Positions 610 through 31,569 of a stretch of 34,646 nt of DNA are shown here, piece by piece. Within the stretch, counting starts at the first letter, position 1. Each line of letters begins with the position of its first letter. Under the pieces are notes generated by a model. It ran no database searches and had not been told where the DNA came from. It saw nothing but the letters and a program-made list of their open reading frames with translations. Made by a program: the position numbers and the translations under genes. This DNA comes from Iphinoe sp. HA4291-MV1. Its GTDB lineage: Bacteria > Cyanobacteriota > Cyanobacteriia > Cyanobacteriales > Nostocaceae. The stretch lies in contig JAHHHH010000078.1 in assembly GCA_019359415.1 (NCBI GenBank), positions 1-34,646 on the forward strand, read 5' to 3'.

Positions 610-3600
610 TTACCCGAAGTTTTCCCGCTCATCATTAGGCTGCAGAGGCTTCAAAAAACCGTTATGAATTAGGTAAGAAAAGTAAGTACTAAATAACTGA
701 CTATCTATTGCTGGACAGACGATAGAGGTATCTGCCAGTCCATCAAGGGTATTCTGGTAGTTGAATTGTAACCTCCCTGAGTGAGAGATATTTTCTTCAT
801 AATCCTGAGCGAGAAAAAACGGCACTAATGGATACAAAGTGTTTTCTGGTGAACGTTCAGCAACTTCCAGTAGCTTTGAACGCCACTGCTTATAGGAGAT
901 TTGCTGAATTGGGTAACCTAACGAGCTAAGTAAGTTGCTCAGCATACTTGAGTAAAAAGGCTGGTGATTCACAAAATGGAATGCCTTTCCTAAGGATTTT
1001 TCTTGCCTCGATAAATGGACGATCGCTCTGCTGATATAATCCACAGGAGTCATGTCCTCAATCATCTCCACATCTGGCACACTTCCGAGTTGGGTACAGC
1101 CGATAATTAGCTTGTACAAAAAGTCATTTGTATTAAACACACCAGTTTGACTATGCCCTGATACACGTCCTAGCCTGTAGATACAAACAGGAAGACCGCG
1201 ATCGCGTGCAATGGTGACTAATTTTTCGGCAACCCATTTACTTTGAGCATAACCCCCCGATGGCAATTGGTAATTATCTAGGCTGTCCTGTTCTCGAACT
1301 ACCTTAACTCCAGAATCACCAACTGAGGAGAAAACGCTTTTGGTGGAAATGAAATGCACGGGCTTGACTTTGAATTGACTTGCCAATCTCAAAACTTCTT
1401 GAGTTCCCAAAACATTGGCTGCCTTAAGTACAGAGTAGGGAGAAGTATGATGAACCCATGCTCCATTGTGATAGACGACGTCGATTAACTCAGCCATCTC
1501 TCGAAACTGTTCCTGGGAAAACCCCAAAAGCGGCTCAGACAGATCTCCTACAACTGGGATAATTCTGGGGCTTTGAGATTTATCCCAAAGTAAGTAAGAT
1601 TCAAGGCTGCTTTGAATTCTCTTCTTACCCTCTTCGGCGTTAGAAGCACGTACCAAACAATAAATATCTGCGTGAGTTTGCTGTAGGAGTTCGTTCAGCA
1701 AAAAAGCGCCCACAAAGCCTGTGGTTCCAGTTAAAAAGATACAAGCTGGCTCAGTGGTAAACTGAATGGGGATAGCAAGAGGACAAATTGTGGGGTCAAG
1801 GATAGCTTCGTTGTTGAGATCTACAACATTTTTTGTGCCAATAGTAGAAGCTCCTGTCTTTTGAGCTATCTCAATGCTCTGTGCCAATTGCGCGACTGTA
1901 GGCATCTCAAACAGACTACGCAAGGATAGTTCAATTTGGAAAGTTTCTCGCAACCGAACAACAAGTTGAGTAATTAGCAAGGAATGCCCACCTAAATCGA
2001 AGAAGTTGTCGTAGATACCGACTTGCTCGACCTTAAGTACTTGGGTCCACATTCTCGCCAGTAACTCTTCAACTGGTGTACGTGGTGCTACGTAAACTTG
2101 TTCAAGATTGGATCGATTCTGGTCTGGTGCTGGTAGCGCTCTGCGGTCTACTTTGCCGTTGGGTGTCAAAGGCAGAGCCTCTACCATTACAAAAACCGAT
2201 GGTATCATGTAATCGGGCAACTTCTCTTTGAGAAAGCGGCGCAGTTCACTACTGGTAAGGACTTTTTCCACCTTCGGAATTACGTAAGCCACTAGGCTTT
2301 TGTCATTAGAGTTGTCTTCCCTCGCTATGACCACAGTTTGAAGTACATCTGGGTGTTGGGCTAGCACCGCCTCAATCTCTCCGAGTTCAATGCGGAAACC
2401 ACGAACTTTGACCTGGTGGTCAATTCGTCCCAGAAACTCAATATTGCCATCGCTCAGATAACGTGCCAAATCCCCAGTTTTGTAAAGGTGTGCACTCGGT
2501 TCGTCGGTAAACGGGTTAGGAATGAATTTTTGAGCGGTTAATTCAGGGTGATTGAGATACCCTCTAGCAAGACCGAGACCACCAATGTGCACCTCACCTG
2601 GAACCCCAATTGGTACGGGTTCTTGGTAATTATCGAGGAGGTAAATTTGCGTATTGGCGATCGGGCGACCGATGGGAATAATGGATAAATTGCTCTGCCG
2701 CTTGCAGTCCCAGAAGGTAACATCAATAGTAGCTTCAGTCGGACCGTAGAGGTTATGTAGTTGGGCATTTAGACGAGTAAAAAAGCGTTTTTGAAGTTCA
2801 AAAGGCAGCACCTCCCCACTGCAAATAACACGCTTAAGACAATGACATGCCTCTAGTCCTGGCTCTTCGAGAAAAGCTTGAAGCATAGAGGGGACGAAAT
2901 GGAGCGTGGTGATTTGCTCTTTGGCAATCAGCTTGACTAGATAGGCGTTGTCTTGATGACCTCCTGGCTGGGCGATAATCAGACGAGCACCATTCAGCAA
3001 TGGCCAGAAGAACTCCCAGATTGACACATCAAAGCTGAAAGGAGTCTTTTGCAGAACGCGGTCTGTTTCTGTTAATTGATAAGCATCTTGCATCCAGAGC
3101 AAACGATTGCATAGTCCCATGTGGGTGTTCATTACCCCCTTGGGTTTCCCTGTAGAACCAGAGGTGTAAATGACATAGGCGAGATTTTTAGTTGTTACTC
3201 CACTAACCGGATTTGACTGGCGTTGTTGGGCGTACTGCAAAGCAGGGTCGTCGGCATTGGTTTTCCAGTCTGTGTCCAAACAGATTACTTGAGCTTGATG
3301 AGGAGGCAATATATCAATCCAATGGTGCTCCGTCAACAACACTGGTACTTGAGTATTCTCCAACATAAAAGCTAGTCGCTCCTTTGGATAGGTAGGGTCG
3401 AGAGGTAAGTAAGCTCCTCCTGCTTTGAGAATGCCTAGCAGTCCAATTATCATCTCTATTGAGCGTTTTAGGCAAATGCCCACCAGCACTTCCGGTCCCA
3501 CACCTAGTGTCTGTAAGTGGTGTGCTAGTTGATTAGCTCGATGATTCAGCTCCGAGTAAGTTAACTGCTCATCTTCAAAGACCACCGCCACAGCATTACT

Positions 3601-6600
3601 GTTTTGCTGAACTTGAGCTTCAAATAGCTGATGGATACACTGATTTATAGGATAATCAGTCTTAGTGTTGCTCCACTCTACCAGTAGTTGATACTGTTCC
3701 TGTTGAGAAAGCAGACAGTATGATTCGTAGCGTTCTTCTGGTTCACTAGCGATCGCTGTGAGGGTTCTGGCATAATAATCACCAATTTGTTTAATTTGTT
3801 CCTCACACAATGCTATGGGATCATAGTTAAGAGAAAAGTGAACTTCAGACGAGGAAGGATTTTGGCTAAATTGAGCAGTAAGAGTAAAGTTTGTTTTCTC
3901 GAAAGTCTTTGTGTCTAGAACTTGAACGCCTTTGAGGTTGAGCGTATTCTGATAAACATGAAAGTGGACGAAGTTAAATGCTATTTCAAACAAAGACTGT
4001 CTACCTAGGACTCGCTGCAATTCTGCCAAAGGATACCGTCGAAATGGTAGTAGTTCTTGCTCAGCTTCAAAGGTATTCCTCACCAAATCTATCCAAGTAC
4101 CTCCGTTACATTGCAGGCGAAAAGGTAAAGAGTTGAGGAACAATCCTAGCACTCGTTCTCCATCAGTTCCTTCCAGTCGCCCATGAGATACCAATCCTGT
4201 TACAATATCTGATTGACCACTTAGCAGGCTTAACACCCGCATATGAGCAGCTAATAGCACACTTTTGAGAGAAACTTTTAAGGATTTCGCCAGTTGCAAA
4301 AGACCTTGAGAAACTTCTATTGAAAGTGGAACTTCATATACGCCAACTTGTTGGACAGAATTCCTGTGGTTTGCAGCTGACCAGCGAGGTAACATCGTTA
4401 AGGTGCTGTCGCTTAACTTCTCAGTCCAGTAGCGTTCTTGAGCATCCAATGCGATCGCTTCTTGCTCTAGAGCAACAAAGTCTTTAAAATTAACTGCTGG
4501 GGGTGAAGGAAGCAAATCAGCTTCTTTATTTAGCAAGGAAAAATATTGTACAAACAGCTCAGTGAGCATGGAAGCCACGCTCCACCCATCGAGAATTGCA
4601 TGGTGCTCAGTAAAGCTAAACTGAAAGGTTTCTTCACTGCGACGATGAATATGAAAGCGTAACAGAGGGGCTTTAGTCCAATCAAAAAGCGATTGCTTCT
4701 CGGCTTCAAACCAGTTAGACAGTACTTTCTCTTGTTGAGCAAAAGAGAGATGGCGAATATCTTCTATTTGCAAAGGAACATTAACCATTTTATGGACTAG
4801 CTGTAGTGGCTCATTAAATTTACTCATTTCAAACGAAGTACGCAGCACAGGATGACGATCTGCAAGCTGTTGTACCGCAGTTTGAAAGTATTGCAGGTTA
4901 AAGGGAGCCTGTAAGTGATAACTAGAAACATTATGGTAGGTTGGGGTATCTAAGTTATATTCGCTATGGAAAACCATCCCCATTTGAAGTTGGGTAAGGG
5001 GATAGGCATCCTCTATGTCATTGGGTAACTTCAGCCGATCTTGTTCGCAAATAAGGCTAAACGGTTGAACTTTCTGTGAAATTATTGTGCCTGCCTCTTG
5101 TTCTGTTAGGTTTTGAACCAGTTCATAAATCGTCTGATATTTGAACAACTGCTGTAGTGAAAAGCACAAACCTCGTTCTTGAGCCTGGGATTGAACTTGA
5201 ATACTACGGATTGAATCCCCTCCTAATGCAAAGAAGTTGTCGTAGATGCCCACTTGTTCGAGACCAAGAACCTGATTCCAGATTTCGGCTAATACTTTCT
5301 CTTCTGGAGTGCGAGGTGCTACGAAAGCTTCATCCAATTCCGGTCTAGTTGCGTTAGAATTTGGCAGTGCTTGGCGGTCTACTTTACCATTGGGCGTTAG
5401 AGGCAGGGCATCTAAGAACACGAAGACCGGTGGTACCATATATTCAGGCAACTGCTGCTTCAAGAAGTTCCGTAGTTGACTGGTGGTAAGTGTTTGCTGT
5501 TTACTGGGAACAACATACGCCACCAACTGCTTGTCACCGGGTTGAACCTCTCGCGCCAGCACCACAGTCTCCTGTACCCCTGGGTGTTGAGCTAACACTG
5601 CCTCAATCTCCTCAAGTTCGATGCGGAAGCCCCGAATTTTCACTTGGTGGTCAATACGTCCTAAGTATTCTATGTCTCCATTAGGTAAATAGCGGGCTAA
5701 GTCACCAGAACTGTAAAGGCGTGCATCTGGTTTGTTGCTAAAGGAGTTGGCAATGAACTTAATGGCAGTCAACTCAGGACGGTTGAGATAGCCCCGAGCC
5801 AAACCGGCACCGCCAATGTACATTTCTCCAGGAACCCCAATTGGTACTGGCTGCTGATTTGGAGCAAGTAAATAAACTTGCAGGTCAGGAATTGGACGAC
5901 CAATGAGACTTCCTGAAGCAACTTCTAAATCTGCCATTGTCAGTGGGCGATAGGTGACATGCACGGTGGTTTCCGTGATGCCGTACATATTCACTAACTG
6001 GGGGGATCTATCCCCATGTCTCTCAAACCACGGTTTCAAGCTCTGAAGTTCCAGCGCTTCTCCACCGAAGATGACCAAGCGCAAGGCTAGTTCCTTGGCA
6101 GTCCCCAAAGATTCTTCTGCCCGTATGAGTTGGCGGAAGGCTGAAGGAGTCTGATTGAGTACAGTCACCTGCTGCTTGCACAACAAGTCGTAGAATGCTT
6201 CCGGTGAGCGACTAAGCCAGTATGGCACTACTACCAGCCGCCCACCAAAGAGTAGGGCACCCCAAACTTCCCAAACTGAGAAATCAAAGGCAATTGAGTG
6301 GAACAGTGTCCAGATATCTTTTTCGTTGAAATGATACCAGGACTGCACAGCATAAAAGAGACGAGTGACATTTACATGGTTTACTAAGACACCTTTAGGT
6401 TGACCTGTTGAACCTGAGGTGTAGATGACATAAACTAAGTTATTAGCCGTGGAGTTACTGACGAGATTCTCTTGGCTGTTTTGAGCGATACTTCCCCAGT
6501 CGGTGTCTAAGCAAACGACTCTGGTTTGATGTTTTGGCAAGGTTTCTATCAGAGGCTGCTGTGTCAGCAACACTGGTATCTGAGCATCTTGCAAGATGAA

Positions 6601-8268
6601 AGCGAGGCGCTCCTTTGGATATTTGGAATCCAGAGGAACGTAAGCACCACCCGCCTTGAGAATGGCTAGCAGTCCAACCACCATTTCCACTGAGCGTTCC
6701 ATATAAATGCCAACAAGAACCTCTGGTCTTACTCCTAGTGATCGCAAGTGGTGCGCTAGCTGATTAGCCCTGGCGTTCAGTTGTTGGTAGGTTAGTTGCT
6801 CGTCTTCAAAGACTATTGCCACAGCATGAGGGGAGTGCTGCACCTGAGCCTCAAACAGTTGATGAATACACTGGTTTTGGGGATACTGAACTTGAGTGTT
6901 ATTGCACTCGCCTAGCAGTTGCAGTCGTTCTCCCTCGCTTAAAATTGATAATTCCGATACTCGCCGCTCGGGATTAGAGATCGTGCCTTCGAGCAAAGTT
7001 TGCAAATGCCCTAGCATCCGGGTAATGGTCATTGCGTCAAACCGACGAGAATCGTATGAAATCTCTAGCAGCAACTCTGAACTAGGCACTACTACGACAG
7101 TCAAAGGATAGTTCGTCCGCTCAACAGAACGAATATTCCGAATTTTTAGCTCATCACTACACTCCAGTAAAGAAGCTTCTACGGGGTAGTTCTCAAACAC
7201 TACTATGCTCTCGAACAGAGGCATACTCCTAGGCACATCACTCCAGTCTTGGATCTGTGAAAGAGGACTGTACTCGTACTGGCGTGCTTCAATTTGTTGA
7301 GTCTGAAGTCTCTTGAGCCAGGATAAGAGTAGATCTTCGGCATCAACTCTTACTCGCACTGGCAAGGTGTTGATGAATAGACCCACCATAGACTCGGCTC
7401 CAGCCAGTGCTGCTGGACGACCGGAGACAGTGGCTCCAAAAACCACGTTGGTTTCACCACTGTAACAGCTTAGCAGTAATGCCCATGTTCCCTGTAGTAT
7501 AGTGTTTAGCGTTAGCTGATGCTTTTGAGCTAGAGACCTCAGTGCTGCTGTACTTTCCATTGATAGCTTGATTTGCTGCTGAGCGTAACTTTTCTCCTGG
7601 CTCCCGAATTTCTCAGAAATCCGATCAACTACTAAAGGGGTTGGTGCTTGTACGCTAGTGAGCATCTGCCGCCAGAACGCCTCAGCATTAGACAGTTCCT
7701 GCTGATGTAGCCAAGCGATGTAGTCTCGATAGGGACGGCTCAATTCTAAATGTAACTCCTGACCCAAGCAGTACGCTTCGTAAAAAGCAATGACTTCCTT
7801 GAGGATTAAAGCCGAAGACCACCCATCTAGCAACAGGTGGTGATGACTCCAAACAAATTGGTAAGTGTCAAAAGCCAACTGGATAATGGTTAGGCGCATT
7901 AGAGGTGCTTTGTTAAGTTCAAAGCCCTGTTTTCGCTCCGCTTGAAGTAAAGTCTCCAGTCGCTCTTGCTGCTCTTGTGCTGATAGTTTCTGCCAGTCAT
8001 GCTGTATACAAGGCAATTTCACCTGCCGATGTACTATTTGAACAGGTTCTTTAATACTTTTCCATACAAAAGAGGTTCGTAAGACGGAATGCCGATCTAC
8101 CACCTGCTGCCAAGCTTGCTCAAACGTCGAAACGTTTAGATTACCATGTAAGGTACAAAGCGTTTGATTGAAATATACTCCCGACTCGGGAGCGTAAAGG
8201 GTATGGAAGAGTATGCCCTGCTGTATGGGCGAGAGGGGATAAAAATTTTCTATATTTTCCCAGTTCAC
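610..8268 (-). CDS. NRPS-3: C-A(Thr)-PCP-C-A(Ser)-PCP-R, terminal reductive-release synthetase
   Basis: This 2552-aa protein has two extension modules and a terminal reductase. C1 (~5-440) has an intact HHLLLDG and resembles the DCL type that follows an epimerization domain. A1 (~465-970) reads DFWNIGMVHK, the known L-Thr code. PCP1 has LGGDSIRS (~1014). C2 (~1080-1530) has an intact HHAILDG. A2 (~1550-2050) reads DVWHISLIDK, the Ser code. PCP2 has LGGHSLL (~2093). The reductase (~2175-2540) has the NADPH motif GTTGFVG (~2183) and YAQSK as the YxxxK pair. It should add Thr and Ser and release the chain as a C-terminal aldehyde or alcohol; no thioesterase is present. The GTG start at 8268 lies 1 nt after the NRPS-2 stop, with AGGAG inside the NRPS-2 end, so the two genes are translationally coupled. 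Domain calls are firm; substrates are code-based predictions. Confidence 0.96.
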   Translation of the reverse strand: MNWENIENFYPLSPIQQGILFHTLYAPESGVYFNQTLCTLHGNLNVSTFEQAWQQVVDRHSVLRTSFVWKSIKEPVQIVHRQVKLPCIQHDWQKLSAQEQQERLETLLQAERKQGFELNKAPLMRLTIIQLAFDTYQFVWSHHHLLLDGWSSALILKEVIAFYEAYCLGQELHLELSRPYRDYIAWLHQQELSNAEAFWRQMLTSVQAPTPLVVDRISEKFGSQEKSYAQQQIKLSMESTAALRSLAQKHQLTLNTILQGTWALLLSCYSGETNVVFGATVSGRPAALAGAESMVGLFINTLPVRVRVDAEDLLLSWLKRLQTQQIEARQYEYSPLSQIQDWSDVPRSMPLFESIVVFENYPVEASLLECSDELKIRNIRSVERTNYPLTVVVVPSSELLLEISYDSRRFDAMTITRMLGHLQTLLEGTISNPERRVSELSILSEGERLQLLGECNNTQVQYPQNQCIHQLFEAQVQHSPHAVAIVFEDEQLTYQQLNARANQLAHHLRSLGVRPEVLVGIYMERSVEMVVGLLAILKAGGAYVPLDSKYPKERLAFILQDAQIPVLLTQQPLIETLPKHQTRVVCLDTDWGSIAQNSQENLVSNSTANNLVYVIYTSGSTGQPKGVLVNHVNVTRLFYAVQSWYHFNEKDIWTLFHSIAFDFSVWEVWGALLFGGRLVVVPYWLSRSPEAFYDLLCKQQVTVLNQTPSAFRQLIRAEESLGTAKELALRLVIFGGEALELQSLKPWFERHGDRSPQLVNMYGITETTVHVTYRPLTMADLEVASGSLIGRPIPDLQVYLLAPNQQPVPIGVPGEMYIGGAGLARGYLNRPELTAIKFIANSFSNKPDARLYSSGDLARYLPNGDIEYLGRIDHQVKIRGFRIELEEIEAVLAQHPGVQETVVLAREVQPGDKQLVAYVVPSKQQTLTTSQLRNFLKQQLPEYMVPPVFVFLDALPLTPNGKVDRQALPNSNATRPELDEAFVAPRTPEEKVLAEIWNQVLGLEQVGIYDNFFALGGDSIRSIQVQSQAQERGLCFSLQQLFKYQTIYELVQNLTEQEAGTIISQKVQPFSLICEQDRLKLPNDIEDAYPLTQLQMGMVFHSEYNLDTPTYHNVSSYHLQAPFNLQYFQTAVQQLADRHPVLRTSFEMSKFNEPLQLVHKMVNVPLQIEDIRHLSFAQQEKVLSNWFEAEKQSLFDWTKAPLLRFHIHRRSEETFQFSFTEHHAILDGWSVASMLTELFVQYFSLLNKEADLLPSPPAVNFKDFVALEQEAIALDAQERYWTEKLSDSTLTMLPRWSAANHRNSVQQVGVYEVPLSIEVSQGLLQLAKSLKVSLKSVLLAAHMRVLSLLSGQSDIVTGLVSHGRLEGTDGERVLGLFLNSLPFRLQCNGGTWIDLVRNTFEAEQELLPFRRYPLAELQRVLGRQSLFEIAFNFVHFHVYQNTLNLKGVQVLDTKTFEKTNFTLTAQFSQNPSSSEVHFSLNYDPIALCEEQIKQIGDYYARTLTAIASEPEERYESYCLLSQQEQYQLLVEWSNTKTDYPINQCIHQLFEAQVQQNSNAVAVVFEDEQLTYSELNHRANQLAHHLQTLGVGPEVLVGICLKRSIEMIIGLLGILKAGGAYLPLDPTYPKERLAFMLENTQVPVLLTEHHWIDILPPHQAQVICLDTDWKTNADDPALQYAQQRQSNPVSGVTTKNLAYVIYTSGSTGKPKGVMNTHMGLCNRLLWMQDAYQLTETDRVLQKTPFSFDVSIWEFFWPLLNGARLIIAQPGGHQDNAYLVKLIAKEQITTLHFVPSMLQAFLEEPGLEACHCLKRVICSGEVLPFELQKRFFTRLNAQLHNLYGPTEATIDVTFWDCKRQSNLSIIPIGRPIANTQIYLLDNYQEPVPIGVPGEVHIGGLGLARGYLNHPELTAQKFIPNPFTDEPSAHLYKTGDLARYLSDGNIEFLGRIDHQVKVRGFRIELGEIEAVLAQHPDVLQTVVIAREDNSNDKSLVAYVIPKVEKVLTSSELRRFLKEKLPDYMIPSVFVMVEALPLTPNGKVDRRALPAPDQNRSNLEQVYVAPRTPVEELLARMWTQVLKVEQVGIYDNFFDLGGHSLLITQLVVRLRETFQIELSLRSLFEMPTVAQLAQSIEIAQKTGASTIGTKNVVDLNNEAILDPTICPLAIPIQFTTEPACIFLTGTTGFVGAFLLNELLQQTHADIYCLVRASNAEEGKKRIQSSLESYLLWDKSQSPRIIPVVGDLSEPLLGFSQEQFREMAELIDVVYHNGAWVHHTSPYSVLKAANVLGTQEVLRLASQFKVKPVHFISTKSVFSSVGDSGVKVVREQDSLDNYQLPSGGYAQSKWVAEKLVTIARDRGLPVCIYRLGRVSGHSQTGVFNTNDFLYKLIIGCTQLGSVPDVEMIEDMTPVDYISRAIVHLSRQEKSLGKAFHFVNHQPFYSSMLSNLLSSLGYPIQQISYKQWRSKLLEVAERSPENTLYPLVPFFLAQDYEENISHSGRLQFNYQNTLDGLADTSIVCPAIDSQLFSTYFSYLIHNGFLKPLQPNDERENFG

Positions 8269-8269
8269 T

Positions 8270-17320: not shown

Positions 17321-17362
17321 CAATGTTTATATTTAGAGATTTCTAGTTGCTGTTGTCTAGTT

Positions 17363-17854
17363 TTAGGTGTTGTTCATGAAAAGCTTATTGAATTCTTCTT
17401 GACTTAACTCAGCTTCTGGAAAATCTGACGGTGTAAAGCTTGGCGTATCGGTTAATTGGTAGTCAGTTATTGGTGATCGCAATTCCTCCACGGTGACTGA
17501 GCCCTGTTCTGCTTGTGGAGCTGGAATCGTCTCTACAACCATTGCCAACTCAGCGATTGTTAGTAACTCAAATAGCTGATTACTACTGAATTGAAGACCA
17601 GCTTCATGGGCTTTAGCCACAATTTGAATACTCTGAATCGAATCACCTCCCAACTCTAAAAAGTTGTCGTAAATGCCTACCTGCTTAATTCCTAAAACCT
17701 GACTCCAGATTGTGGTTAGTGCCTCCTCCACTGGTGTGCGAGGTTCTACGTAACTAGTTTGCACTTCTGTACTTTTTTCCTTCATCAGCATTTCCAGAAG
17801 TTCACGTCTTTCTGGAGAAAGCTGCTCAATGCGCTTTAAAAGATCATCGCTCAC
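17363..17854 (-). CDS. Free-standing peptidyl carrier protein with an E-domain deletion scar
   Basis: The 163-aa product has a helical N-terminus (LLKRIEQLSPERREL), one PCP (~38-108) with LGGDSIQS and the phosphopantetheine Ser72, and then an unusual tail. AEQGSVT (115-121) matches the entry to the E domain of NRPS-2 (AEQGLVT). It is followed at once by VEELRS...FTPSDF (122-145), which aligns without gaps to the exit of that E domain (VEILRS...YTSSDF). An ancestral E domain therefore seems to have been removed in frame, with the junction near nt 17491. The protein should supply the carrier that NRPS-1 lacks after A(X1) and so hold residue X1. The GTG start at 17854 has GGAG ~10 nt upstream, 28 bp after the NRPS-1 stop. 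The next gene, the C-dioxygenase fusion, is a likely partner. Confidence 0.93.
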   Translation of the reverse strand: MSDDLLKRIEQLSPERRELLEMLMKEKSTEVQTSYVEPRTPVEEALTTIWSQVLGIKQVGIYDNFLELGGDSIQSIQIVAKAHEAGLQFSSNQLFELLTIAELAMVVETIPAPQAEQGSVTVEELRSPITDYQLTDTPSFTPSDFPEAELSQEEFNKLFMNNT

Positions 17855-23800: not shown

Positions 23801-26501
23801 CCAATGCGTCACCTTCTTTTGAAGCCAGCATTGCTGCTTCTGTGCGAACATAGTCGGTATATCTCAGCACCAAGGAATTAAGGATTGCTCTTGTACCAGC
23901 TTTGTGCGCCTGATACAGTATTTCTAGTTCATGCATCAGCACTGCACCAGACCAAAAGTCAGCGATAATGTGATGCACAACTAGCAGTAAAGTATGTTCT
24001 TGTGATAAACGCTCTTTGGGTGGCTCCCCTTGCAGCGATCGCGTAAATAAGCTGACCCGCAGCAAGGGACCTTGCTCTAGATTAAAGGGACGATGGGCTT
24101 CTTCGACTAGGCGGTTGTTCAAAAACGCCTCGCTCCAAGTGGAAACGTCTTCGTGCTGAAAACAAATTTCCAAGCGTTCGTGAATTTGCTGAACGGGTCG
24201 CCCTGATAAATTAGTGAAGGTGGTTCGTAACGTTGGATGACGTTCCACCAAGCTTTGAAACGCACGACCCAATGCTGGAATATCTAATTCTCCTTGAAGG
24301 CGGGCTGTAGCCACAATATTGTAAGCTGGACTCTCTGGTGTCAGCTGGTGCAGAAAGTACAAAGCTTGTTGACCAATTGAGAGAGAATTTTCAGCAACTG
24401 CTTCGGAGGCTGGAGCGAGAGTCATTTCTTGGGGAAAAGTAGATGTTGTATCTTGTGCAAGTACCTCGTTTGCAAGCTGGTCAATATTGGAATCTGCAAG
24501 AAAACTCGTTATTGGTAAAATTACACTAAAGTTAGTTTCAATGGCGTTTTTGAGTTCAATAGCCATTAGGGAGTCAAGACCCATAGTACTCAAGGGCTGC
24601 TCCAGGTCCAACTGGGACGGAGCTATCTTGAGAACCTTCGCCAAGAGCTCCTGAAAATAAGAAGTTAGTTTTAAGTAACGTTCTTGAGGCTGCAACGCTC
24701 TGAGGTCAAAGCGAGTCAGCGAAGTCATGCTGACTGAAGTATATGAGTTTTCAAGAATGCTGCTTCCTACAATATCCAAGGTTTCATTCAAAAATCCAGC
24801 GCGACACGCATAGCGTTGAATTTTTCCACTGGAAGTTTTTGGGATGCTTCCAGTCTTTAGCAACAACACCGCATAAACTTGTAACTCGTGTTCTTCCACC
24901 ACCGCTTGACGGATGGCTCTAATCACCTCATCAATATCTAGATTCCTCAGGTAAGTGCGCTTCACTTCACCTGCTACTACTAACCGTTCAACACCTGCAA
25001 CTTCAATTGAAAATGCCGCAATACCGCTCTTTTGCAATGCAGGATGACTTTGTTCTACCGTCCATTCAATGTCTTGTGGATAATGGTTGCGACCACGGAT
25101 GACAATTAGGTCTTTGAGGCGACCAGTGATGAACAGCTTACCTTCGTGTAAAAATCCCAAGTCTCCAGTACGTAAAAATGGACCTTCCCCACTGTCTGTT
25201 AAGTATGCTTGGAAAGTCTCCTGGGTTTGCTCGGTTTGGTTCCAATAACCCATAGCCACGCTCGGTCCTTTAACCCAAATTTCACCTACCTCATTGCTGT
25301 CGCAACAAGTTGCAGTTTCGGGATGGGCAATGACAATATGCAAGTCTTGCAGAGGTTGACCACAACTCACCAGTGTCTGAGCACTTACCTCCTCTAAATT
25401 TGTGGGAATTACCCGATTTTGCGCCAGTGCTGCTTGTTGCACAGATAAAAGGACAGGTGGAGTCTTCTTGCAACCACCAGAAACAATTAAAGTCGTTTCT
25501 GCCATACCATAGCAGGGATAAAAAGCTTCGCGACGGAAGCCACAGGACTCAAAGGTTATAGCAAAGCGCTCAAGGGTTTGGGCACGGACAGGCTCAGCTC
25601 CGTTAAAAGCAACCTCCCAACTGCTGAGGTCGAGAGTTGCTCGCTGGGAGGGAGTAATCTTTTGAACGCACAGATCGTAGGCGAAATTGGGACCACCGCT
25701 GGTCGTTGCTTTGTATCGGGAAATGGCTTGTAGCCAGCGCAAGGGTTTTTGCAGAAAAGCCACTGGAGACATGAGGATGCACGGGATACCCAAGTACAGA
25801 GGCTGGAGCATGTTTCCGACTAAACCCATATCATGAAAAAGGGGCAGCCAACCTACGAAGAGGGTTTCTGTTGAATGCTGCATCGCCTGCTGAATCAAAA
25901 GTTCGTTGTGCAGCAAATTCCCATGACTCACCATTACCCCTTTGGGTGAACCTGTGGAGCCTGAGGTGTATTGGAGAAATGCTAGCGTGTTGCTGTTGAC
26001 AGATGGCTCCTGCCATGCATGTGCTAAGTCGCTAGCAATAATGTTGTCGGTAGCTAGGAAACGCAGAGCTTGTAAATTTGGATACTGGGCGAATTGTCGC
26101 TCTATGTTGGACAAAACGGTTGTGGTGGTTAGTGCGATTGCTGAGCGTGCATCCGCCACAACAGCTTGGAGTCGGGACACCGATTGGTTAGCCCGAGGTG
26201 GATAAGCGGGGACAGCAACGACTCCAGCATACAAACAACCGAAAAACGCCGTTATAAATTCCAAACCTGGCGGGTATAACAGCAGAACACGCTCTCCACT
26301 GATGACTCCACAACTTTGGAGCAAGGCAGCAATTTTCCGAGCTTGAAAATCGAGATCCCCGTAGGTGATATGACTTTCTTGTTCTTCAGAATCAAGCAGA
26401 AAAGAATAAGCTTTCTGTTTAGGTTGGTGAAGCGCTCGACCTTGGAGAAGTTCGACCAATGTGGAAAACTTAGCTGGTAGCTCGAAAAGGTTTTTGCCCA
26501 T
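17883..26501 (-). CDS. NRPS-1: FAAL-ACP-C(starter)-A(Thr)-PCP-C-A(X1), lipoinitiation synthetase
   Basis: This ~2872-aa protein starts the chain. The fatty acyl-AMP ligase (~10-590) has YTSGSTGSPKG (~180) and CYGMAETT. The ACP has GLDSLMA (~642). The starter C domain (~700-1150) has HHIIADF (~844) and an in-frame ~37-residue insertion (~897-933). A1 (~1215-1760) reads DFWNIGMVHK (Thr) and has an extra ~40-residue segment before LVAYYV. The PCP has IGGDSIRS (~1805). C2 (~1870-2300) has HNSILDG, so the catalytic second His is Asn. A2 (~2320-2830) reads DSGLIAEVW plus Lys. The protein ends ~40 residues after the A10 motif GKVDRR without a carrier; the next gene supplies it. I prefer ATG 26501 to GTG 26507 because AGG sits 7 nt before the ATG. 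The acyl chain cannot be read from the sequence. Confidence 0.96.
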   Translation of the reverse strand: MGKNLFELPAKFSTLVELLQGRALHQPKQKAYSFLLDSEEQESHITYGDLDFQARKIAALLQSCGVISGERVLLLYPPGLEFITAFFGCLYAGVVAVPAYPPRANQSVSRLQAVVADARSAIALTTTTVLSNIERQFAQYPNLQALRFLATDNIIASDLAHAWQEPSVNSNTLAFLQYTSGSTGSPKGVMVSHGNLLHNELLIQQAMQHSTETLFVGWLPLFHDMGLVGNMLQPLYLGIPCILMSPVAFLQKPLRWLQAISRYKATTSGGPNFAYDLCVQKITPSQRATLDLSSWEVAFNGAEPVRAQTLERFAITFESCGFRREAFYPCYGMAETTLIVSGGCKKTPPVLLSVQQAALAQNRVIPTNLEEVSAQTLVSCGQPLQDLHIVIAHPETATCCDSNEVGEIWVKGPSVAMGYWNQTEQTQETFQAYLTDSGEGPFLRTGDLGFLHEGKLFITGRLKDLIVIRGRNHYPQDIEWTVEQSHPALQKSGIAAFSIEVAGVERLVVAGEVKRTYLRNLDIDEVIRAIRQAVVEEHELQVYAVLLLKTGSIPKTSSGKIQRYACRAGFLNETLDIVGSSILENSYTSVSMTSLTRFDLRALQPQERYLKLTSYFQELLAKVLKIAPSQLDLEQPLSTMGLDSLMAIELKNAIETNFSVILPITSFLADSNIDQLANEVLAQDTTSTFPQEMTLAPASEAVAENSLSIGQQALYFLHQLTPESPAYNIVATARLQGELDIPALGRAFQSLVERHPTLRTTFTNLSGRPVQQIHERLEICFQHEDVSTWSEAFLNNRLVEEAHRPFNLEQGPLLRVSLFTRSLQGEPPKERLSQEHTLLLVVHHIIADFWSGAVLMHELEILYQAHKAGTRAILNSLVLRYTDYVRTEAAMLASKEGDALGQRNGAGPNNPTINRGASRLSKEDLPHFSSHSPGERLWEYWRKQLAGDLPVLNLPTDRPRPFIQSYTGASQSFRLNAEITQRLKTLSHAHGATLYMTMLAAFQVLLYRYTGQEDLLVGSPTTGRSRADLAGVVGYFVNPVVLRADLSGNPTFEAFLSQVRSTVLDAFAHQDYPFARLVEQLQPIRDPSRSPLFQVMFVLQKAHLRNQEGLAAFALGETGARIKLGELELESLSLEKRIAQFDLTLMMAEVDGVLSGSWQYNTDLFDSATIARMVNHFQTLLEGIVAEPQKLVSNLPLLSESEQHQLLREWNATLTNYNIDSCLHQQFEAQAERIPDAVALVCEQERLTYQQLNQRANQLAHHLQALGVEREVLVGIYLERSVEMVVSILGILKAGGAYVPIDPTYPKERIAFMLEDAQVPVLLTQQKLLEALPEHEAQVVCLDKDNEALLQENVDNPVNKVTINNLAYVIYTSGSTGIPKGVLVNHHNVLRLFASTQSWFNFSDRDVWTNFHSYAFDFSVWEIWGALLYGGRLVVVPYWISRSPEAFYNLLCTEKVTVLNQTPSAFRQLMRAEEEVSSNSKSLALRLVIFGGEALELKSLQPWFERHGDVPQLVNMYGITETTVHVTYHFITTADLNNATASLIGCRIPDLQVYLLDQQHQPVPIGVAGELYIGGAGVARGYLNRPELTAERFITNPFENSKFNRLYKSGDLARYLPNGELEYLGRIDHQVKIRGFRIELAEIEAVLHQHPAVQEAVVLILQPDYSQKRQRIAPVNELGDTDTINAFRRLLKQSSESEVEPAEARLVAYYVCNQQTAPTISELRRFLAQKLPDYMIPSVFVPLETMPLTPNGKVDWRSLRAPDRTRPELDKPFVAPRTSIEKTLADIWALVLEIEQVGIYDNFFEIGGDSIRSIQVRAKAQERGLNFSLPQIFQHQTIHNLAQEITTAEPSTQETPRTEPFSLILSAERQKLPSDVVDAYPLARVQAGVIFHSQYCPDLPMYHDVFLYHLQVRLDVELFQEALQQLVARHPILRTSFDLTNFSEPLQLVHQTVSVPFQVQDLRDLSPYQRKQALADWIKVERKRNFDWACPPIIRFFIQRLTDDSFYFTLSCHNSILDGWSKSSLLTELLQRYYALINGECFIEPPLTVTYRDFIALERSVLKSLECKDFWTKKLEDCVTTKVPRWHFTERETNTPQIAVLDVPISSQVSDGLKKLARLAEVPLKNVLLAAHVRVMSLISGETDILTGLESNGRLEEKDAEKTLGTHLNTVPFRLKLTGGTWVELVQQVFETERELLPFRRYPYADLQQLSGRQPLQPLVETVFNYTHFHIFQTLETLEGLGIVGAQGFGETHFGLKVEFNRNHASDCIQLDLECDLTDISQAQLEAIGRYFSETLTAMSSQPFECYKSQCLLPERERHQMLVEWNNTATEYPQDLLIHQQIEVIATQIPHGIAVNFEGEQLTYQELNHRANAIANHLRGLGISPDVPVAICVERSWEMVVGILGILKAGGAYVPLDPAYPKEHLAFMLEDAQVPILLTQARLVAGLASHKAQIVCIDSQWNTLAQESIENPINRTTLENIAYIIYTSGSTGKPKGVLVTHKNLVHSISARLGYYQEPVTSFLLLPSFAFDSSVGSIFWTLCQGGTLVLLKEGKHRDLWQLAKAITQYQVSHWLSVPSLYSALLAHIDPTELVSVRTVIVAGEPCSNELVKRHHELLPRTSLFNEYGPTEGTVWSSVYDCHNHDLRTPVPIGRPIANTQIYLLNSYGQPVPIGVRGEVHIGGLGVGQGYLNRPELTTEKFIPNPFSDEPNARLYKTGDLARYKSDGNIEFLGRIDHQVKLRGYRIELTAIEAILQQHPVVREAVVTLSEEASGSKHLVAYVMPEQKSAPASNELRSFLRQKLPEYMIPNVFVILEALPLTPSGKVDRRSLPAPEQVQSEDERIAQILGMLETLSEDQVKLMLAKKNLSMQRQ
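23718..23794. repeat. In-frame palindromic element inside the NRPS-1 starter C domain
   Basis: The perfect 17-bp arms gaaatggggcaggtcct (23718-23734) and aggacctgccccatttc (23778-23794) flank a 43-bp centre. The centre holds an inner imperfect hairpin around cgatttatcg, a core I associate with dispersed palindromes of Nostocales. It lies within the ~37-residue insertion between LASKEG and ERLWEYW, which are normally nearly adjacent in this domain type. The reading frame stays open. Confidence 0.85.
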
Positions 26502-26508
26502 TTGCACA

Positions 26509-26511: not shown

Positions 26512-26558
26512 GCTTATATCTTATAATTTTTCCGTTAAAAATGCTCAATTAAAGTCTG

Positions 26559-27088: not shown

Positions 27089-27107
27089 GATAATCATAAT
27101 TCTTATC
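27089..27107. promoter_or_regulatory. Fur box candidate
   Basis: GATAATCATAATTCTTATC matches the classical 19-bp Fur consensus GATAATGATAATCATTATC at 16 of 19 positions. It lies ~450 bp upstream of the receptor start and ~590 bp upstream of NRPS-1. A perfect TATAAT follows 5 bp later on the plus strand (27113-27118) and another overlaps it on the minus strand (27111-27116). Repression of one or both divergent units under iron sufficiency is the natural reading. The distance to both genes implies long leaders if this is the main promoter. Confidence 0.6.
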
Positions 27108-27112
27108 TTTAT

Positions 27113-27118: not shown

Positions 27119-27556
27119 AAGTTTTACTTATTGTGTTGAGTATTTAAATAGCTGCTCAAAAATGTTAGCAAGTATCTAACTCGAAGGCGTGAAAAAAATT
27201 TCTCTAACCCCTTGATATCGGCAAATGAATCATTTGTCGCTTGCACTATAGGCTATCTTAATTTGGAGTCGAGTAAAGTTTGGCAAAGTTTGACAACCCG
27301 TCGTTTGACTTATATAGCTACTTCGTTCATGATAAGAATTGCTTTTGTGCAACTTGACACGATAGATATACAAGCAAAATCTTATGTACAAGTAGAGTCT
27401 TTACTTAACCACCAATCGATTGAGTTTGGGAAACTTGAAGCTGGTGTAAGTCAACTCCTCAACCCCTATCAGGAGACACTCATGTTTTTCTCCAATGTTC
27501 ATAATTACTCTCTGATGTTATAGCGGCAATCTACCATTTAAGTGTGAGGAATTAGG

Positions 27557-30205
27557 GTGAAAAAACAGAAACTATCTGCTTGGATATGGCTGTTTACAGC
27601 TGTATCAGTCTTAGGAACTTTGCCAGCACGTGCTGATGTTGTAAATGTCAGTGCTGTGCAACACAAAATTGGGACAACAAACGCAGCAGCACCCATAAAA
27701 GACATTCCTCGACTGAGTGAGATTCAGCGTCCTTACACCAGTGTCAAGGACTGGGTAGCACAACAGACTCAACAAAATCAACTTATACAAGTTACAGGAG
27801 TGCGCCTTTCCCCAAAGAAGAATGGTCTGGAAGTCATCTTAGAAACTCCTGCATCTGATAAGCTGCAAAGTACAATCAAAAGTGAAGGAAATACCTTTAG
27901 CGCTGTTATTTCTAACGCGCAACTGCGCCTACCATCAGGCAATACATTCCGTGCTGACAAGCCAACAGATGGAATCACAGCAGTAACCGTGACGAATTTG
28001 GATGCAAATAGTATCCAGGTGACAGTGACAGGTGAAACGGGTTTACCGACTGTTGAGTTGTTTGACAGCAATTCTGGTCTAATTTTCGCCTTCACGCCAA
28101 CTGCATCTTCTGTCCAGCAACAACAGCAACAGCAACAAACGCCACAAACGAACAAACCAAGTCGTGAAACACCGCAAGCAAAACCATCAGCTTCTGGTGA
28201 AGAACCGATTGAATTGGTAGTGACAGGTGAGCAAGAAGGCAGTTACAACCCATCAACTGCCGACACTGCAACAAAGCTACGACTGCAAAGGCGCGATATT
28301 CCTCAGTCAATTCAAGTCATCCCGCGTCAGGTGATAGAGGATCGCAAGGTCATTCGTCTTGATGAACTAACTGAGAACGTCAGTGGTGTCCGACGAGAGC
28401 CTGGTTATGGCAACTTATCTTCTGCAGGTTTTCGAGTTCGAGGCTTTAGATTGGGATTTGAAAATTTACGCAACGGGTTTAGGGATATTGGTTATCTGAG
28501 TCCTCGCGAGGTTGCAAACGTTGAACGAGTTGAGTTTCTCAAAGGTCCGGCATCGGTTCTATATGGAGGTAGTGGCAGTGAAGCTTTGAGTGGCGCTGTT
28601 AACACTGTGACAAAAAAGCCACTTGCTGAACCTTTCTATAATGCAACCTTCACCGCAGGTAGCTATAGCTTTTATCGTCCTACGATTGATATTAGTGGAC
28701 CACTCACAACAGACAAATCCCTTCTATATCGTCTTAACCTCGCCTATGAAAATGCAGGCAGTTTCCGCGACTTTGGAGGAAATGAAAGCTTCTTTATCTC
28801 ACCAGCGCTAACTTGGAAAATTGGCAAGCGAACTGACCTGACTGTTGAGTTTGAGCATCTACGTTATGACAATGTCTTTGATTCCGGTTTTCCACTATTA
28901 CCTGAGTCTTTAAGGCTTCCCAGTAATAGATATTTAGAAGATCCCAATTTTAGTCATAGTAACATCGACTCAACTTCGATTACCTATAACTTTGAACACC
29001 GATTCAGTGACAACTGGAGATTCAGGCAAGGCTTTAATACTATCCTTACGAACTATAACAGCAAACAGTTAGACATCTACAGTAGTGATCTGCTGAGCGA
29101 TCGCCGAACACTTCCGCGTGAAGCTTTAAAGACAGATGAAGAAACACACAACTACACGTTGCAAAACGAAATCTTTGGTAAGTTTAATACTGGTTCTGTG
29201 AAACATAACTTCCTGCTGGGAGCGGAGCTAGCCCGCTATGATTTTAACTTTGCTATTTTGAGAGGAACTTTTCCTGAAATTGATATATTTGCACCACAGT
29301 ATAGACAACAACCAGGAGAGTTAGGAAGCCGTACTTTCAGTGGATATGGTTCTGACCTTCTCGGAATTTATGTACAGGATCTCGTTGAGATTCTGCCCAA
29401 TCTGAAAATTCTAGCAGGCGCTCGCTTTGACTCCAACGAAGCTACAAGAAAAAATCTGCTAAATGATACAGTGATCTTTCGACAGTCACTCAATGAAGTT
29501 TCACCACGAGTCGGTATTGTCTATCAGCCAAGCGATACGACTTCGCTCTATTTCAATTGGTCAAAAGCTTTCGCTCCTGTGTTCTATGGTCAGAGCCGGA
29601 CAGATGAACCATTTAAGCCAATTATGGGAGAGCAATTTGAAGTTGGAATCAAGCAGGACTTTCTAGATAACAAGCTCTCAGCAACTTTAGCACTTTACCA
29701 AATTACCAAACAAAATGTGCTGACACCAGACCCAGTAGATAGAACTTACCGCATTCAGACGGGCGAACAAAGAAGCCGTGGGATAGAACTGGACGTAGCA
29801 GGGGAAATCTTACCAGGTTGGAATGTTATTGCCACCTATGCTTACACAAATGCGGAGGTCACAAGTGACAACAGTATTCCTGTAGGCAATAAATTAGTCG
29901 ATGTGCCCGATCATAGCGCCAGCTTATGGACAACTTATAAAATTCAAAGCGGTGATTTGCAAGGGTTAGGGTTTGGAGTGGGGCTTGTGTATGCAGGATC
30001 TCGCCAAGTCTCACTGCCAAATACTTTCAAAACAGATTCCTATCTAAAGACTGATGCTGCTATCTACTACCAGAGAGGTAATTATCAACTTGCTCTAAAT
30101 ATCAAGAATCTCTTTGATATTAAATACTTCTATAATTCTCAGGAATACTTTTTATACCCAGGAGCACCATTAACTGTCTTGGGGACGGTATCAATTCAGT
30201 TTTAA
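27557..30205 (+). CDS. TonB-dependent siderophore receptor with N-terminal AMIN domain
   Basis: This 882-aa outer-membrane protein has a signal peptide (~1-26, ending PARA), an AMIN domain (~55-180), a Gln-rich linker with eight Gln encoded by a CAA/CAG run (~28117-28140), a TonB-box-like IELVVTG, a plug (~235-370, DIPQSIQVIPRQ then GPASVLYGG) and a 22-strand-type barrel ending LGTVSIQF with the C-terminal Phe. This is the usual cyanobacterial siderophore receptor layout. It should import a ferric siderophore using TonB energy; the product of the divergent NRPS operon is the obvious candidate (inference). The start is GTG at 27557, with AGGA ending 6 nt upstream. The length is normal and there is no internal break. 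A defective copy of its 5' end lies downstream. Confidence 0.95.
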   Translation: MKKQKLSAWIWLFTAVSVLGTLPARADVVNVSAVQHKIGTTNAAAPIKDIPRLSEIQRPYTSVKDWVAQQTQQNQLIQVTGVRLSPKKNGLEVILETPASDKLQSTIKSEGNTFSAVISNAQLRLPSGNTFRADKPTDGITAVTVTNLDANSIQVTVTGETGLPTVELFDSNSGLIFAFTPTASSVQQQQQQQQTPQTNKPSRETPQAKPSASGEEPIELVVTGEQEGSYNPSTADTATKLRLQRRDIPQSIQVIPRQVIEDRKVIRLDELTENVSGVRREPGYGNLSSAGFRVRGFRLGFENLRNGFRDIGYLSPREVANVERVEFLKGPASVLYGGSGSEALSGAVNTVTKKPLAEPFYNATFTAGSYSFYRPTIDISGPLTTDKSLLYRLNLAYENAGSFRDFGGNESFFISPALTWKIGKRTDLTVEFEHLRYDNVFDSGFPLLPESLRLPSNRYLEDPNFSHSNIDSTSITYNFEHRFSDNWRFRQGFNTILTNYNSKQLDIYSSDLLSDRRTLPREALKTDEETHNYTLQNEIFGKFNTGSVKHNFLLGAELARYDFNFAILRGTFPEIDIFAPQYRQQPGELGSRTFSGYGSDLLGIYVQDLVEILPNLKILAGARFDSNEATRKNLLNDTVIFRQSLNEVSPRVGIVYQPSDTTSLYFNWSKAFAPVFYGQSRTDEPFKPIMGEQFEVGIKQDFLDNKLSATLALYQITKQNVLTPDPVDRTYRIQTGEQRSRGIELDVAGEILPGWNVIATYAYTNAEVTSDNSIPVGNKLVDVPDHSASLWTTYKIQSGDLQGLGFGVGLVYAGSRQVSLPNTFKTDSYLKTDAAIYYQRGNYQLALNIKNLFDIKYFYNSQEYFLYPGAPLTVLGTVSIQF

Positions 30206-30255
30206 TTTTAGGAAGTCCAGCAAACGTCCTAAGACTTGCCACATTAGCACTATAG

Positions 30256-30392
30256 GCGTCATGTCATTCAAATGTGAGGAATTACGGTAAAACAACAGAA
30301 ATTATTCACCTAGATATGACTGTTTGCAGCTGTATCAGTCTTAGGAGCCTTCTTAGTACGTGCTGATGTTGTAAAGGTGAGTGCTGTGCAAC
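30256..30392 (+). pseudogene. Remnant of a second receptor gene 5' end
   Basis: The sequence repeats the region around the receptor start (~27527-27665) with many substitutions. Both have tgtgaggaatta, then gctgtatcagtcttagga, then acgtgctgatgttgtaaa and gtgctgtgcaac. In this copy the GTG start has become GTA and an in-frame TAG follows after ten codons. Homology stops at ~30392, within codon 37 of the intact gene, so only the ribosome-binding site and signal-peptide region survive. A tandem receptor copy was evidently lost here. Confidence 0.85.
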
Positions 30393-30471
30393 GCAAACAA
30401 GAAGTATGTGTTGAGTTTTGATTTGAAAGAATTTAGAGACCAAAAGATGGAGTTTCAAGGAGAAGCTGACA

Positions 30472-31569
30472 ATGAAATTACGAACCCTAGCATTAACCAT
30501 TCATCGCTCTATCGGTATTCTCCTCGGTCTAATGCTTTTGGTAATAGCTTTAACAGGAAGCGCCTTGGTTTTCCATCGAGAGATTGCACAAGCAATTTAT
30601 CCTCAACTGATGCAAGTGGTGCCCCAAGGGGAGCGCCTTGAGCCGGAAATTGCATTGAATATCGTTCACTCTGCCTTTCCCAATATAGAGCTTTATGGCA
30701 TCGACTGTCCTCGCACCTCCTTTGGAGTCTACCGAGTCATACTGAAGTTTGGTTCTGACGAATGGATTAATGTTTTCGTTAATCCCTACAGCGGAACTAT
30801 CCTAGGGTCACAGCAATGGGGGTATACCCTAATGAGCTTCATTTACAACATCCACCTATCTCTGCTAGTTAAAGAAGTGGGAGAGCAACTCGTCGGGATT
30901 TGTGGTTTATTGTTCTTAGTACTAGTTGTCAGTGGGCTGGTTGTTTGGCCAGGATGGCGCAACCTAAGTCGAGGCTTTTGGATTCGCTGGAAAGCTCCTG
31001 CTCCTTTACTCACCTACGATTTCCACAAAGTAGGAGGTTTTTTAGCAGCTGCATTCCTGCTCTTGATAGCCTCAACCGGGGCGGCTATGGTATTTAGCAG
31101 CCAGTTTGAAAGCGTGACTTATTGGTTAACTCACACGCCTCAACCAACACCGCTTGCCTCAACGCTCGTAGCAGGTCAAGCCCCTCTACCGTTGACTCAG
31201 ATTCTACATGCAGCAGACGCCTCCTTGCCTGAGGGATTAACCACCCTTATATTTCTGCCGCATCAACCAGATGGGGTGTTCGAGGTGGGCAAGAAGTTAC
31301 CTCAAGATATTGATTATTATGGTTCCAGTAAAGTTTATATTGATCAGTATAGTGGAAAAGTGTTGCGGGTGGATAATGCTTTGAAAGCACCTCTAGCAGC
31401 ACAAATTAGTAATGCACTGCTCTCGTTGCATAACGGTGCTTATGGAGGATTGGGGATGCGGTGTCTATATGTACTCATCGGTCTTGTTCCCCCCGCACTG
31501 TTAATCACTGGTGTTCTGATGTGGCGCAATCGTAATGGAGCCAATTACTACAGAACTCAGAAACGTTAA
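30472..31569 (+). CDS. PepSY-associated transmembrane protein (putative ferrisiderophore reductase type)
   Basis: The 365-aa inner-membrane protein has about four TM helices (~12-34, ~138-160, ~185-210, ~335-355). It opens with LALTIHRSIGILLGLMLLV, typical of the PepSY-TM (PiuB/FoxB-like) family. Conserved histidines occur at the membrane edges: LTIHRS, FHREI, YNIHLSL, DFHKVGG and SLHNGAYGG. These are candidate haem or metal ligands. Characterised relatives reduce ferric siderophores in the periplasm after TonB-dependent uptake. It lies directly downstream of the receptor with the receptor remnant between them, so co-transcription is likely. The start ATG at 30472 has AAGGAG ~8 nt upstream (caaggagaagctgacaATG). 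The exact substrate is not predictable. Confidence 0.9.
   Translation: MKLRTLALTIHRSIGILLGLMLLVIALTGSALVFHREIAQAIYPQLMQVVPQGERLEPEIALNIVHSAFPNIELYGIDCPRTSFGVYRVILKFGSDEWINVFVNPYSGTILGSQQWGYTLMSFIYNIHLSLLVKEVGEQLVGICGLLFLVLVVSGLVVWPGWRNLSRGFWIRWKAPAPLLTYDFHKVGGFLAAAFLLLIASTGAAMVFSSQFESVTYWLTHTPQPTPLASTLVAGQAPLPLTQILHAADASLPEGLTTLIFLPHQPDGVFEVGKKLPQDIDYYGSSKVYIDQYSGKVLRVDNALKAPLAAQISNALLSLHNGAYGGLGMRCLYVLIGLVPPALLITGVLMWRNRNGANYYRTQKR

Follow-up and report, generated by a model that had tools for sequence, protein, structure and literature searches.

What does the nonribosomal peptide synthetase (NRPS) operon on contig JAHHHH010000078.1 of the cyanobacterium Iphinoe sp. HA4291-MV1 make, and how does it compare with systems already described? 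The window (the whole stretch analyzed, 34,646 nucleotides) is the entire contig, and the cluster therefore possibly continues past the contig ends. The operon encodes condensation (C), adenylation (A), thiolation (T), epimerization (E) and thioester reductase (TD) domains and a TauD-type hydroxylase. The hydroxylases of siderophores containing beta-hydroxyhistidine (beta-OH-His) are reportedly those that Reitz et al. named IBH_His in 2019, and the "interface" domain arrangement is said to owe its name to the same work. The IBH_His examples known to us are proteobacterial. As in those, a TauD-type hydroxylase in the window is paired with an interface domain that precedes an A domain whose code reads as His. 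The accessible part of PMC12971057 names IBH_His, calls beta-OH-His rare (<2% of detected regions), introduces two new cyanobacterial clades, CyanoBH_Asp1 and CyanoBH_Asp2, as Asp types, and leaves several further unreported hydroxylase clades out of its rules.

Three cyanobacterial clusters bear comparison with the window. The cyanochelin B cluster (Leptolyngbya sp. NIES-3755 plasmid 2, AP017310.1; accessible part of PMC12628792) shares its FAAL start, C-TauD-interface-A order, T-TD release and a receptor gene alongside. Unlike the window, its hydroxylases partner Asp, giving beta-OH-Asp, and read M-H-R and S-Q-R at three residue columns (defined below) where the window reads H-T-T; polyketide synthase modules and other residues lie between, and the stretches read contain no AsnB. 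Both cyanochelin B TauD sequences fall outside the window's 19-row hydroxylase clade, and in the window the A code after the hydroxylase is His, with no Asp code among the five A domains. The cluster on plasmid C of Trichormus variabilis ATCC 29413 (NC_007412.1, our locus L021), for which no characterization was found in the literature searched, has FAAL-T-C-A[Ser]-T-C-A[His], a standalone T, a C-TauD protein (52% identity) and a divergent TonB receptor with a Fur/Zur-type box. It differs in that no AsnB and no TD were found in the stretch read, a methyltransferase follows, the next A code starts DAHI in a split frame, and the end is Thr-His. Likewise, G257:C228 (G, C and L numbers are our handles for genomes, contigs and loci) has FAAL-Thr-His, C-TauD, AsnB (81%), interface-A[His], then Thr, and a divergent receptor with a box; it differs in an extra C-type domain with an E-type motif after T, a methyltransferase-like gene (named by eye), an ending Thr - DAEDIGTVVK with no TD found, and a hydroxylase of another lineage (F-H-R).

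We propose, with a probability of roughly 60%, that this locus directs the synthesis and uptake of a lipopeptide metallophore by the steps set out below, with the beta-hydroxyl on the second His and with iron as the probable metal. A beta-OH-His nonribosomal peptide metallophore would be of a known kind that is apparently unreported in cyanobacteria, whose named metallophore beta-hydroxylases, in the accessible sources, are Asp types. No such cyanobacterial metallophore was found in the accessible parts of the open literature searched (subscription papers and MIBiG lay outside that search), nor, as the initial annotation had said, one with this module order.

All parts named in the initial annotation are present by domain and family searches: six collinear minus-strand genes running from 26507 to 610 and, across a gap of 1049 bases, divergent plus-strand genes for an AMIN/TonB receptor and a PepSY protein (Table 1). 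The AsnB gene and an aldo/keto reductase fragment are additions to its finding. The A-domain codes were extracted by alignment to GrsA, with the usual Stachelhaus position numbers; in the alignment the GrsA sequence used differs from 1amu at residues 1, 3 and 4 of 488, none of them a code position. In order, the codes are DFWNIGMVHK, DSGLIAEVWK, DSALIAEVWK, DFWNIGMVHK and DVWHISLIDK, and we take DFWNIGMVHK to be Thr and DVWHISLIDK to be Ser. The accessible part of PMC12283262 reports four codes across 14 His-activating domains, among them DSALIAEVWK as a His code tolerating beta-hydroxylation. DSGLIAEVWK is one position off, and its His assignment is by similarity. These two codes predict His at both X1 and X2, and the A domains would read Thr/His/His/Thr/Ser. 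The acylated pentapeptide and the order in acyl-Thr-X1-D-X2-Thr-Ser, as previously proposed, are supported; X1 and X2 have gained a predicted identity, and the product that we would predict is acyl-Thr-His-(D-beta-OH-His)-Thr-Ser aldehyde.

Which of the two His residues is hydroxylated? We gathered 74 TauD-type hydroxylases from the window, the host genome, other cyanobacteria, proteobacteria, one Streptomyces and one Gemmatimonadota record; they were picked by similarity to the window's protein and are not a frequency survey. Matches of 230 residues or fewer or below 100 bits were dropped (no row came from the Tistrella locus L141), most Vibrio, Klebsiella and Streptomyces plasmid matches lie outside the set, and removal of one duplicate (G225 = UBA11370) left 73 distinct rows, 13 without a readable downstream module and 60 usable (C-like plus A domain). 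The C-like domain downstream of TauD is without HHxxxD in 55 of the 60 (three have it, two were unread), and of the A codes that follow, 43 are Asp/Asn-type, 13 are His and 4 are other. When 294 distinct C-like domains were placed in a tree, the inactive ones grouped in a single clade of 59 (support 0.999), which holds 57 of the 60 domains that follow TauD or carry a PxLC-type motif; the three exceptions come from Janthinobacterium, Azospirillum and Gemmatirosa. The PSLCADA domain of the window falls inside this interface clade. Because it lies directly N-terminal to the A domain of X2, X2 is most likely the hydroxylated residue, and, with an intact E domain motif in the same module, it would therefore be epimerized to D-beta-OH-His. 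Three of the four nearest relatives, in the C-domain tree, of the C domain after E also follow a C-type (E) domain. The hydroxyl, which had been placed on X1, is moved to X2 by the interface-domain position and the 55/60 pattern. Gene order favors X1, the His that would sit on the standalone T, in that the C-TauD gene directly follows the standalone T gene, and in T. variabilis the residue before the hydroxylase reads His and the one after does not; we consider hydroxylation of X1 decidedly unlikely, given the inactive C-like domain immediately N-terminal to the A domain in those 55 loci, the Asp/Asn or His code after TauD in 56 of 60, and the cyanochelin B cluster, whose order is the same and whose product has beta-OH-Asp (accessible part of PMC12628792).

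The lineage of the hydroxylase itself also points to His. The TauD domain (Pfam TauD 1.9e-42; HNE at 583-585 as the HxD/E motif) falls in a clade of eight rows, all His-partnered (support 100/99), nested in a clade of 19 (99/99), 12 of them His-partnered; the single His-partnered row from outside the cyanobacteria, Methylocystis, lies inside the window's clade on a long branch. This clade may be one of the unreported clades mentioned in the accessible part of PMC12971057. Residue columns 586, 705 and 731 (numbering of the C-TauD protein), at or beyond the metal motif, separate hydroxylase types. Asp-partnered rows have mostly Met, Ser, Asn or Gln at 586, His or Gln (some Ala) at 705, and Arg at 731 in 37 of 43, H-T-T occurs in all eight rows of the window's clade, and the second His group reads G-T-N in three and G-A-Y in one. 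With the rule fixed beforehand, 20 further loci were fetched, of which one (L176) was identical to a used row; other candidate loci, such as those in G035, G169, G229 and G017, lie outside the test. The rule was correct in 17 of the 19 new loci, with H-T-T marking a His partner in 3/3, and missed L177 (G-A-N, His partner) and L178 (M-H-R, an A domain of neither type without a preceding interface domain). In total, H-T-T rows are His-partnered in 11 of 11 (eight used for discovery and three, 86-88% identical to those, later). This prospective test supports the rule weakly, and the three residues mark the clade and are at most candidate determinants of specificity. Residues 551-750 are 62-82% identical to three His-clade enzymes versus 50-66% to three cluster orthologs, and the ends of the protein's TauD domain are no closer to the former than to the latter, a profile suggestive, without being proof, of a domain swap or gene conversion of the hydroxylase. 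When the TauD domain was modeled with AlphaFold from seven rows, the mean predicted local distance difference test score (pLDDT) was 55.6, and the model was set aside.

From these parts we infer the following route, including its stereochemistry, metal and transport. The FAAL would activate a fatty acid, and the assembly line would make acyl-L-Thr-L-His, with the upstream His A domain, which has no T of its own, presumably served by the standalone T. The hydroxylase-fused C domain would couple acyl-Thr-His to the second His, loaded on the interface-A-T-E protein; the TauD domain would dock on the interface domain and beta-hydroxylate the carrier-bound His; the E domain would invert it; and Thr, then Ser, would be added. 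The TD domain would then reduce the chain off as a Ser aldehyde, or as an alcohol on further reduction. Reductive release had been proposed earlier, and the TD motifs and TIGR01746 match bear it out. In G243, a Scytonema metagenome-assembled genome, a 402-aa aldo/keto reductase follows the TD gene, and the fragment in the window is 79% identical to its residues 1-127. A search of the host genome at E 0.001 turned up no further piece of the gene; it was cut either by insertion or by the contig end. Because the reductase is truncated, the aldehyde is the more likely end group, barring double reduction by TD or another reductase. In the finished product, beta-OH-His would bind the metal as a bidentate ligand, and the other His would contribute an additional imidazole; the metal complex would re-enter through the TonB receptor, the PepSY protein may free the metal by reduction, and a Fur-family repressor bound at 27089-27107 would probably govern both sides.

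The surroundings of the operon argue for a metallophore, as the initial annotation held. The receptor is above the TIGR01783 cut-off, and in five relatives the starter protein likewise has a divergent receptor next to it: G257, T. variabilis, G299b, Nostoc sp. LPT and Nostoc sp. CHAB 5715 (in the last, only the FAAL end of the starter is visible). The PepSY partner is common to G243 (73%), G094 (44%) and a second cluster in the host genome (38%). The box was scored with the E. coli Fur consensus and 7-1-7 palindrome in their usual form. The window's box matches that consensus at 16/19, as do 2 of 2000 dinucleotide-shuffled copies of the intergenic region and 0 of 300 in a separate run; equivalent regions in G257, T. 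variabilis and G299b match at 16, 17 and 16 of 19 (0, 0 and 1 of 300 shuffles), so that three of the five relatives have a box. Boxes are absent or weaker in G243, the host's second cluster (C112), G152b and G094. Promoter-like sites lie near the box on both strands and occur no more often than in shuffled sequence. The cyanobacterial Zur box NTNANAATGATNATCATTNTNAN (accessible part of PMC9337993) is matched at 15/16 in G257 (0/300 shuffles), 14/16 in T. variabilis (2/300), 14/16 in G299b (1/300) and 13/16 in the window (11/300), where the match overlaps the Fur-type box. Control of the locus by metal through a Fur-family protein, of Fur or Zur type, is likely.

Which metal is bound? The Zur-like matches, the two predicted imidazoles beside one beta-OH-His, and the SBP_bac_5-type ABC importer that adjoins the receptor in T. 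variabilis (Pfam; a substrate-binding protein of similar type was seen by eye in G299b) would suit the same product family aimed at zinc, copper, nickel or cobalt, with Zur-type control of a His-rich metallophore. We hold this to be somewhat unlikely: the Fur-type match is the stronger one in the window, a PepSY reductase-type protein fits a reducible metal and not zinc, and FecB/FecCD-type ABC genes (named by eye) follow the receptor in G257, Nostoc LPT and CHAB 5715. In Nostoc sp. LPT a cobalamin riboswitch (L020 17698-17840) precedes DUF1636-like and MetE-like genes (by eye) adjoining metallophore genes; we considered it as metal evidence and rejected it, for it is probably a separate unit.

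Several observations weigh against our proposal. With the Anabaena FurA consensus (accessible part of PMC4005646) the window scores only 13/19, a level reached by 273 of 300 shuffles, and iron gains no support; equivalent regions of Nostoc LPT and CHAB 5715 have no box or a weaker one. Thus, the Fur-like box of the initial annotation is present, and its assignment to iron is weakened, since the box is Zur-like too. The predicted product has a single canonical bidentate group, which falls short of hexadentate Fe(III) coordination without 2:1 binding, other side chains or an AsnB step. The C domain just upstream of TauD reads HHxxx[D/E] in 60 of 61 rows, and the window, with CHIVLDA, is the exception; in the C domain before the first His, HN, HD or HT replaces HH in all nine cassettes read. 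In G257, whose cluster has the most in common with the window's, the residue rule breaks down, since the hydroxylase reads F-H-R and its partner is His; the three new H-T-T loci are not independent; and copying the nearest earlier row's label scores 18/19, better than the rule. Finally, the frame of the aldo/keto reductase fragment runs into a repeat about 124 bases long, complete or partial copies of which also lie at C111, C55 and C116. This truncation, the changed C-domain motifs and the transposase remnants at the right contig end (32754-33125, DDE_Tnp_1_3; 34195-34488, DUF4277) could mean that the locus has decayed and its product is no longer made. That is very unlikely in our view: all six biosynthetic frames are open at full length, the T, E, TD, AsnB and TauD motifs inspected are intact, and a motif change common to all nine cassettes did not arise by recent loss.

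Full-length identity to the starter protein is 60-75% in G376, G257, Nostoc sp. LPT, G299b, G243, G152b and T. variabilis, all of which begin FAAL-T-C-A[Thr or Ser]-T-C-A[His]. Could this family make lipopeptides that bind no metal, with the receptor a bystander? In G376, G152 (C37) and G091 the cassette and AsnB occur without TauD and without a receptor match on the contig (E 1e-100 to the window's receptor), and in G152 and G091 an MFS exporter and a penicillin-acylase-like protein (both by eye) follow. We judge such a function of the window highly improbable, in view of the divergent receptor in five relatives, three of them with the box, and of the fact that the clusters without a receptor are also those without the TauD hydroxylase.

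What does the AsnB-like amidotransferase do? The protein is 71-81% identical (blastp) in G257, G376, G243, G152b, G091 and G299b. A search of 388 genomes of the order found it at 72-82% in G257, G376, G299 (two loci), G152 and G091, and it stands at 77% in the Scytonema genome G243; 386 phylum-wide genomes added no such copies to that of the window and those at the two G299 loci. Every full locus with a close AsnB has the acyl-Thr/Ser-His cassette (G299a, on a short contig, is visible from T-C onward), and the minimal locus, in G152 and G091, comprises the cassette, a T with one C-type domain, AsnB and the MFS-type and penicillin-acylase-like proteins. Because AsnB is present with or without TauD, it tracks the acyl-Thr/Ser-His part and not the hydroxyl. 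The cassette occurs with no close AsnB in the genome of Nostoc LPT and with none in the T. variabilis stretch read; none was seen in the available fragments of CHAB 5715. The closest solved chain, 7ylz ("hydroxyamidotransferase"), scores 185 bits versus 160 for E. coli AsnB, too close to discriminate. Eight distant homologs (52-59%; G065, G387, G269, G325, G318, G185, G236 and G378b) are all outside an acyl-Thr/Ser-His cassette; the sole neighbor common to any two is a large synthase-like protein (G269/G378b, 31% over 471 residues), a further copy, G378a, has carrier and A-domain open reading frames about 9 kb distant, and the neighbors point to no clear role. Amidation of an Asp side chain (Asp follows AsnB in G243) was considered and rejected, as the residue is His in the window and G257, Ser in G299b and Thr in G376. 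An unlikely idea is an uncharted group of Nostocaceae-type His lipopeptide metallophores in which AsnB would add a nitrogen ligand (amide, amidine or hydroxamate) to the carrier-bound acyl-Thr/Ser-His, completing the metal site with beta-OH-His; we know of no NRPS with such a chelator design. In two AsnB clusters without TauD, a gene of PF05118, the aspartyl/asparaginyl beta-hydroxylase family, directly follows AsnB (L071 19350-20126 in G376, where the gene continues beyond L071, and L073 7473-8249 in G299; Pfam was run only on most of the G376 copy).

Related clusters were also seen elsewhere. The host genome has a second, larger cluster with a FAAL (G000:C112, about 98000-142000; L034, L035, L036), with large open reading frames in which only carrier domains were recognized, its own TonB receptor, PepSY and MFS-type genes (the last by eye), and one Asp-partnered and one His-partnered hydroxylase, from which a mixed beta-OH-Asp/beta-OH-His metallophore is predicted. 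A TauD - interface - A[His] - T - reductase ending recurs in several cyanobacteria (G152, G201, G094, G238 and G243; L039, L040, L043-L044, L045 and L031), where beta-OH-His would be the reduced C-terminal residue. In Nostoc sp. LPT (L020 1109-15987), acyl-Ser-His-His with a reductase is followed by an aminotransferase-like protein (by eye) and accompanied by a divergent receptor, with no hydroxylase seen in the stretch, possibly a histidine-amine-ended lipopeptide metallophore. Just past the PepSY gene of the window, 31718-32035 encodes a small protein of GLTT repeats with an HMHHH end; no counterpart was seen by eye beside the PepSY gene of G243.

Table 1. Genes, domains and regulatory box of the window, in operon order followed by the divergent side
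Feature	Positions	Strand	Motif, code or basis
Starter NRPS, FAAL-T-C-A-T-C-A	17883..26507	-	domain search and motifs
FAAL (starter NRPS)	24708-26492	-	
First T (starter NRPS)	24438-24665	-	
First C (starter NRPS)	22881-24389	-	HHIIADF
A, Thr (starter NRPS)	21207-22838	-	DFWNIGMVHK
Second T (starter NRPS)	20946-21173	-	
Second C (starter NRPS)	19536-20870	-	HNSILDG
A, His (starter NRPS)	17997-19493	-	DSGLIAEVWK; no T in cis
Standalone carrier protein T	17363..17854	-	LGGDSI core
C domain fused to SyrP/TauD-type Fe(II)/2-oxoglutarate hydroxylase	14915..17323	-	
C (C-TauD protein)	15974-17305	-	CHIVLDA
TauD (C-TauD protein)	14930-15913	-	metal motif H583-N-E585; residues H586/T705/T731
AsnB-type glutamine-dependent amidotransferase	12969..14885	-	MCG N-terminus, SGGLDS, SGDGSDE
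NRPS C-like-A-T-E	8270..12853	-	
Interface (inactive C-like), N-terminal (8270-12853 protein)	11519-12835	-	PSLCADA
A, His (8270-12853 protein)	9977-11476	-	DSALIAEVWK
T (8270-12853 protein)	9719-9937	-	
E (8270-12853 protein)	8345-9697	-	HHLVVDGVSW, intact
NRPS C-A-T-C-A-T-reductase	610..8268	-	reductase TIGR01746, 363 bits
First C (610-8268 protein)	6913-8253	-	HHLLLDG
A, Thr (610-8268 protein)	5350-6873	-	DFWNIGMVHK
First T (610-8268 protein)	5089-5313	-	
Second C (610-8268 protein)	3682-5016	-	HHAILDG
A, Ser (610-8268 protein)	2119-3642	-	DVWHISLIDK
Second T (610-8268 protein)	1852-2082	-	
Thioester reductase TD, C-terminal (610-8268 protein)	634-1758	-	TGTTGFVG and YAQSK
Aldo/keto reductase fragment, directly after reductase gene	71..496	-	
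Fur/Zur-family box GATAATCATAATTCTTATC	27089..27107	.	consensus scoring
AMIN-plug-barrel TonB-dependent siderophore receptor, divergent from operon	27557..30205	+	TIGR01783, 396 bits, above cut-off
PepSY_TM inner-membrane protein, candidate metallophore reductase	30472..31569	+	

The conserved AsnB step is a concrete biosynthetic puzzle of the cassette. The H-T-T signature would let genome miners predict beta-OH-His over beta-OH-Asp in cyanobacteria. Beta-OH-Asp siderophores are photolytic (accessible part of PMC12628792), and the chemistry to be expected changes accordingly: His-based metallophores may not be photolytic and may bind other metals.

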